From positions 1 through 44,398 of the IMG/VR virus record IMGVR_UViG_3300022750_000022: DNA of 44,398 nt; one strand, 5' to 3'. The notes beneath the pieces are model-generated. The model had not been told where the DNA came from. It saw only the letters and a list, made by a program, of their open reading frames with translations, and ran no database searches. The stretch is from a virus. Shown here in pieces: positions 42,051-42,157 of the stretch; the stretch's first letter is position 1; the number at the start of each line of letters is the position of its first letter. Position numbers and translations under genes: made by a program.

Positions 42051-42096
42051 CCGGGCGGGGTCTTGAAAATCTATATGTTTTCAAGACCCCGCCCGG
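42051..42096. terminator. Perfect 19-bp inverted repeat (hairpin)
   Basis: Arms 42051-42069 and 42078-42096 pair without mismatch around an 8-base loop (TCTATATG). In leftward reading it lies 6 bp past the CCA of the truncated tRNA, where a tRNA terminator would be. The T-runs are inside the stem, so it is not a classic terminator. Confidence 0.6.
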
Positions 42097-42102
42097 GTCC
42101 GA

Positions 42103-42157
42103 TGGTGGCTGGAGGCGGGCTCGAACCGCCGACCTGTGGGTTATGAACCCACCGCTC
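42103..42157 (-). pseudogene. Truncated tRNA (anticodon CAU, probably Met), 3' 55 bases
   Basis: Reading leftward from 42157: GAGC (end of D stem), anticodon arm GTGGG-TTCATAA-CCCAC, a 5-bp T stem GGCGG/CCGCC, half acceptor TCCAGCC, then A and CCA. The expected 5' half (GGCTGGA and D arm) is absent and the ATPase gene runs up to it. It cannot make a tRNA. It looks like an attachment-site remnant of another element. Confidence 0.85.

Follow-up and report, generated by a model that had tools for sequence, protein, structure and literature searches.

Mosaic temperate phages, lambdoid phages among them, are known to exchange integrase/attachment-site modules. Prophage regions of Xylella contain pieces of tRNA that were read as relics of integration, the insertion having disrupted the tRNA without reconstituting it (PMC2605562). 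In the tRNA-dependent lysogeny of phages, an intact tRNA supplied by the phage replaces the disrupted host gene (PMC10865867). Here, we analyzed a single virus record 44,398 bases long (the window), in which a prophage that uses a tRNA-Arg gene carries inside it the 3′ part of a second tRNA, of the tRNA-Met type.

Results

Attachment sites, integrase, and likely host of the present prophage

The prophage extends from an intact tRNA-Arg (CCT) gene (positions 51 to 127, plus strand), whose last 16 nt (112 to 127) form the attL core, to a repeat of this 3′ end at 43639 to 43654 (plus strand; CCCTCCGGGGTCGCCA), which forms the attR core. A 16-nt repeat of this kind is expected 0.02 times by chance, and its recovery agrees with the earlier note on this DNA, which had placed the prophage in tRNA-Arg. 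The tyrosine integrase of the present prophage is encoded on the minus strand (174 to 1268). The motif GGTTTGACA has four copies only in the window, two on the plus strand at 43546 to 43554 and 43596 to 43604 (43546 to 43604 overall), and two in an inverted pair at 172 to 189 (TGTCAAACC at 172 to 180 and GGTTTGACA at 181 to 189); all are putative arm sites of the tRNA-Arg integrase. Relatives of this integrase with 59 to 63% identity adjoin either tRNA-Arg (genomes G389 and G400) or another tRNA-CAU gene (G434 and G406), and in the four genomes they are accompanied by the same or similar repeats. A role of the tRNA-Met piece as a second target of the present integrase was rejected because the relatives' tRNA-CAU gene (CTCATAACGGTC...) differs in sequence. 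Truncated second copies of tRNA-Arg (CCT) in G488 (C1:2655622-2655671), as well as in G388, G434, G455, and G473, suggest further prophages in that gene.

The search for the tRNA-Met piece was class-wide and then focused on one genus of 131 genomes. This genus carries the intact tRNA-Met gene, the tRNA-Arg site with its flank (up to 92% identity over 122 nt, in G279), and matches to the right flank of the window; on the strength of these sequence matches, the prophage host very likely belongs to this genus, which is probably Brevundimonas.

A 3′ tRNA-Met piece adjoins the ATPase gene

The minus strand at 42157 to 42103 reads GAGCGGTGGGTTCATAACCCACAGGTCGGCGGTTCGAGCCCGCCTCCAGCCACCA, 55 nt that comprise, in this order, the 3′ part of the D-stem, the anticodon arm (CAT), the T arm, the 3′ strand of the acceptor, and an encoded CCA. 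Inspection of the window sequence bore out the position and sequence of this 3′ part of a tRNA (CAU), which the earlier note had located at the end of the ATPase gene. The stop codon of that gene (TGA; TCA on the plus strand, 42156 to 42158) overlaps the piece by 2 nt. Its sequence and comparison with the host genus point to an elongator tRNA-Met (CAU) and to a relic attachment site, with the core proper running from the anticodon loop to the CCA (42103 to 42147, minus strand) behind about 10 nt of host-like tRNA sequence. The 5′ half is missing, and ARAGORN and Rfam detected only the tRNA-Arg at 51 to 127 in the window. The piece lacks the complete cloverleaf of a functional tRNA, the sole intact tRNA being the host-locus tRNA-Arg, and the relic is probably inert now.

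The class-wide search recovered genomes in which an intact tRNA-Met shares 97% identity with the piece. Within the likely host genus, intact genes match it at 97% identity over about 58 nt, which argues that the piece is not a chance resemblance, and such matches are present in 125 of the 131 genomes. An exact search of viral contigs with a 44-nt part of the piece returned zero matches. Position 31 (window position 42148) is G in the piece and A in 31 of 31 host genes compared. In host tRNA-Met (L008, L009, and L028 to L056), A31 opposes C39 as a mismatch in the anticodon stem, whereas the G of the relic would pair. Either at least one change postdates the capture, or the donor was different.

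Elements integrated in tRNA-Met share a core and paired arm-like motifs

Five genomes of the genus (G405, G420, G484, G511, and G514) contain a truncated second copy of the tRNA-Met 3′ part, which lies about 1.7 to 49 kb away from the complete gene, and double matches occur in two further ones. These five elements are prophages or decayed elements integrated in tRNA-Met. Their common core extends exactly from the anticodon loop (TTCATAAC) to the CCA; the core in the window is identical to the truncated copies of G514 and G484 at 46 of 46 positions. Relative to the core start, the motif CCCGGAATAGTCCCG is found inside the element ends at positions −81 or −82 and +148 or +160. A wider scan located a longer form of the motif in 34 viral-contig stretches, many of them next to what seems to be an integrase gene's 3′ end and others beside tRNA genes of several kinds; five of the 34 contain a pair of copies about 221 bp apart. 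The motif looks like an arm-type site of an integrase class, its presumed function. Eight viral contigs have a tRNA-Met core that is internal and not intact. All eight have a copy of the −82 arm, and seven have the tRNA-Met integrase (68 to 70% identity at the amino acid level) within the fetched stretch, the eighth (L083) having an integrase about 1.2 kb away. Some tRNA-Met elements carry accessory genes between integrase and attachment site, namely G514 (a transporter) and L083 (an unclassified gene, Fic-like by eye).

Two further observations concern these elements. In viral contigs L081 to L114 and prophages L057 to L067, one copy of AGTCCCGGAATAGTCCCG lies at the 3′ end of the integrase gene and a second about 221 bp away across attP; this sequence marks a widespread integrase class beside several tRNA genes and is usable as a marker for attachment sites. 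The G405 element (L067, 1604 to 3408) is a decayed tRNA-Met element of 1.7 kb in which both arm motifs remain and the integrase gene is reduced to its 3′ end.

The window retains half of a tRNA-Met attachment site

A single arm-like motif of the tRNA-Met integrase class survives in the window (AGTCCCGGAATAGTCCCGGA; 41973 to 41992, minus strand). It lies 158 nt from the core start, within the 148 to 160 nt of the distal arm in the AGTCCCGG class, matches at 15 of 15 positions, and is embedded in 65 nt (41966 to 42030) that share 81% identity with the corresponding place in the G511 prophage. Together with the intact tRNA in the genus, this arm upholds the view of the earlier note that the prophage contains a second, different attachment remnant derived from tRNA-Met. 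The integrase-side arm at −81/−82 is absent, the whole window having one copy of the motif at up to 5 mismatches of 20, and the site is therefore a relic, not a complete attP of the AGTCCCGG class. Searches with tblastn found no remnant of the tRNA-Met integrase in the window, and the only integrase there is unrelated to it, the two proteins giving no significant alignment.

Of the 14 nt preceding the core, 11 agree with the host tRNA, which reads GTTAGAGCGGTGGA in 31 of 31 host genes compared; the corresponding 14 nt of other phage attP sites have 4 to 8 matches. At least 11 of 14 matches occur at 4 of 88,768 window positions, the relic position among them, and the chance of an 11/14 match is about 4e-5 per position. 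The host-like nucleotides suggest that the crossover cut attL about 10 nt upstream of the core. Judging by this short signal, the break was likely made in an integrated prophage (attL) sitting in tRNA-Met, a likely and not proven point.

A perfect hairpin (42051 to 42096) separates core and arm. As the earlier note had described, its stems (42051 to 42069 and 42078 to 42096) are complementary at 19 of 19 positions; they enclose an 8-nt loop. The hairpin is the top-ranked short-spaced inverted repeat of the window, the folding of the 121-nt region has a z score of −6.3, and the core-arm stretch is 10 bp longer than in most relatives (158 versus 148). The same note had placed it where the tRNA terminator would be. 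Neither strand has a T-run after the hairpin, so it is not a canonical intrinsic (rho-independent) terminator. The 31 inspected host tRNA-Met loci and the other loci fetched contain no counterpart, and a pattern search of viral contigs gave none. An origin as the trailer or terminator of the host tRNA was rejected because the host loci have no match; of the pair that the earlier note had proposed to look for in the host, the intact tRNA was recovered from the likely host genus and the hairpin was not. The hairpin is unique to the window phage within the data searched. Other, weaker hairpins directly follow the CCA in some elements, on both the tRNA-Met and the tRNA-Arg side, and a phage-supplied tRNA trailer is therefore possible but unproven.

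An ATPase gene occupies the place of the missing arm in a backbone found with either integrase

An AAA ATPase gene (42156 to 43487, minus strand) replaces the 3′ end of the tRNA-Met integrase gene and its arm motif. Residues 15 to 436 of the product align with 3 to 424 of the 428 positions of the PADLOC model PDC-S59 (628 bits; E value, 1.6e-189), and the protein is predicted to be a member of this candidate defense family, under whose name the literature search yielded no paper. Relatives are sporadic, with 58% identity in a Rhodobacter metagenome-assembled genome, 57% on a Methylobacterium plasmid, and 50% on a Burkholderia replicon; 4 of the 131 genus genomes have matches, all weaker, and searches of viral contigs and phage records returned none. 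By sequence, the ATPase is not similar to any solved structure. Since accessory genes between integrase and attachment site also occur in tRNA-Met elements, the ATPase may stem from either parent.

The G511 prophage, which is integrated in tRNA-Met, matches the window from 1.9 to 13.7 kb at 66 to 85% nucleotide identity. The G434 prophage has the region from 1.75 to 13.7 kb in common with the window (66 to 86% in aligned pieces), together with an integrase 61% identical to that of the window, GGTTTGACA arms, and a different tRNA-CAU as its target. The occurrence of either integrase class on these backbones indicates that the integrase/attachment module was exchanged. Where the window has the ATPase, G434 carries genes for a DNA methyltransferase and for a Fic protein that matches SoFic, which makes this prophage end an accessory slot. 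No phage identical to the window outside the integrase block was found, and the parent is therefore reconstructed from relatives at 66 to 85% nucleotide identity; likewise, the intact tRNA-Met of the window's own host is deduced from the genus.

Two other features of the window deserve mention. Three 27-nt copies with the palindrome GGGTGACACGGGTGTCACCC (13146 to 13253) are possibly binding sites of a regulator or replication initiator, and an acyltransferase gene (Acyl_transf_3) in a stretch of lower GC content (37692 to 38828) possibly modifies the host surface polysaccharide.

Discussion

The tRNA-Met piece is, with high probability, a relic attachment site that stems from an exchange of integrase/attachment modules. 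An ancestor would have integrated into the elongator tRNA-Met gene by means of a tyrosine integrase whose conserved arm-like motif flanks the core on both sides. Through recombination with a second phage, this integrase and the adjoining arm would then have been swapped out for a block with the tRNA-Arg integrase, an attP with its own arm repeats, and the PDC-S59 ATPase. A crossover inside the tRNA, about 10 nt before the core begins, would have left the core, the hairpin, and the distal arm in place. The relic, the arm retained at the expected distance, the loss of the other arm and of the integrase, and the backbones with either integrase class are documented above; that a single event was involved, with a break in the integrated (attL) copy and the ATPase arriving along with the integrase, we infer. 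Conceivably, integrase, attP, and defense ATPase even form one plug-in cassette that moves between related phages and, through illegitimate recombination, entered a resident prophage at its attL, address and defense gene being switched in one step; we consider this rather doubtful.

The earlier note had suggested that the segment from 42.1 to 43.6 kb came from another element that used tRNA-Met. In this disfavored and improbable scenario, the ATPase segment (42.16 to 43.6 kb) would be the end of such an element, the piece its attR, and the hairpin host DNA downstream. The ATPase does stop exactly at the piece, like a last gene at attR, and L083 and G514 have accessory genes between integrase and attachment site. 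However, what follows the hairpin is not host DNA but phage DNA similar to G511, with the attL-side arm motif at the expected 158 nt; the ATPase side has no arm motif, the hairpin is in none of the inspected tRNA-Met loci, and no tRNA accompanies the PDC-S59 relative in the Rhodobacter locus. The polarity is the reverse of that proposed, as the position of the arm motif and the tRNA-Met-integrated related backbones indicate: it is on the hairpin (phage) side that the tRNA-Met heritage lies, and the ATPase segment (42.2 to 43.6 kb) is the newcomer.

Somewhat less probable still is an imprecise excision from a tRNA-Met locus that took host DNA without any integrase exchange, the second proposal of the earlier note. 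The capture of a little host tRNA sequence is plausible, given the 11 host-like positions of 14 upstream of the core, but this reading leaves unexplained the lost tRNA-Met integrase and arm, as well as the unrelated tRNA-Arg integrase with its own arms. Such an excision may rather be one junction of the module exchange.

Also disfavored, and very improbable, is descent from a tRNA gene encoded by the phage itself, like those of large phages and of tRNA-dependent lysogeny, which decayed and lost its 5′ half on insertion of the ATPase. Large phages carry tRNA-Met genes 86 to 88% identical over the stretch of the piece, but the host-genus gene fits better (97%), and the relatives carry at this place an attachment core with arms, none of them an intact phage tRNA. 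Equally improbable is that piece and hairpin are a working RNA element of the ATPase (defense) gene, such as a 3′ processing signal or a decoy tRNA, as the stop-codon overlap and the strong structure might suggest: the piece was rejected as serving the ATPase because no tRNA sequence lies downstream of the Rhodobacter PDC-S59 relative, and an attachment-site origin alone accounts for the sequence.

Read as the relic of a module exchange, this locus provides a mosaic phage genome with a readable layer, in which the old address (tRNA-Met) stands beside the new one (tRNA-Arg). It is direct evidence of the way in which a temperate phage switches integration sites. The exchange may also have imported a candidate defense gene. 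The conserved spacing of the arm motifs (−82/+148) makes such relics searchable in other prophages.

The window resembles phages with tRNA-dependent lysogeny in that a temperate phage carries tRNA sequence linked to integration, but it has no intact tRNA-Met (PMC10865867). Like the Xylella relics, its piece is a prophage-associated remnant of integration, whereas here it is located 1.5 kb within a prophage whose own target is another tRNA (PMC2605562). The window ATPase fits the PDC-S59 family model over nearly its full length, in contrast to the inspected Rhodobacter member in having an adjoining tRNA piece. The literature on integrase swapping and on Brevundimonas tRNA-Met prophages offered nothing direct. 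Exchange of integrase modules is a known kind of event, for which the evidence here is unusually complete and unusually well preserved. As in the exchanges of lambdoid type, the same backbone segment occurs with different integrases and targets, and past and present modules occupy the same place in the genome; unlike in those, the old half-site can still be read within the new prophage, including its core, the host-like tRNA sequence, and one arm.
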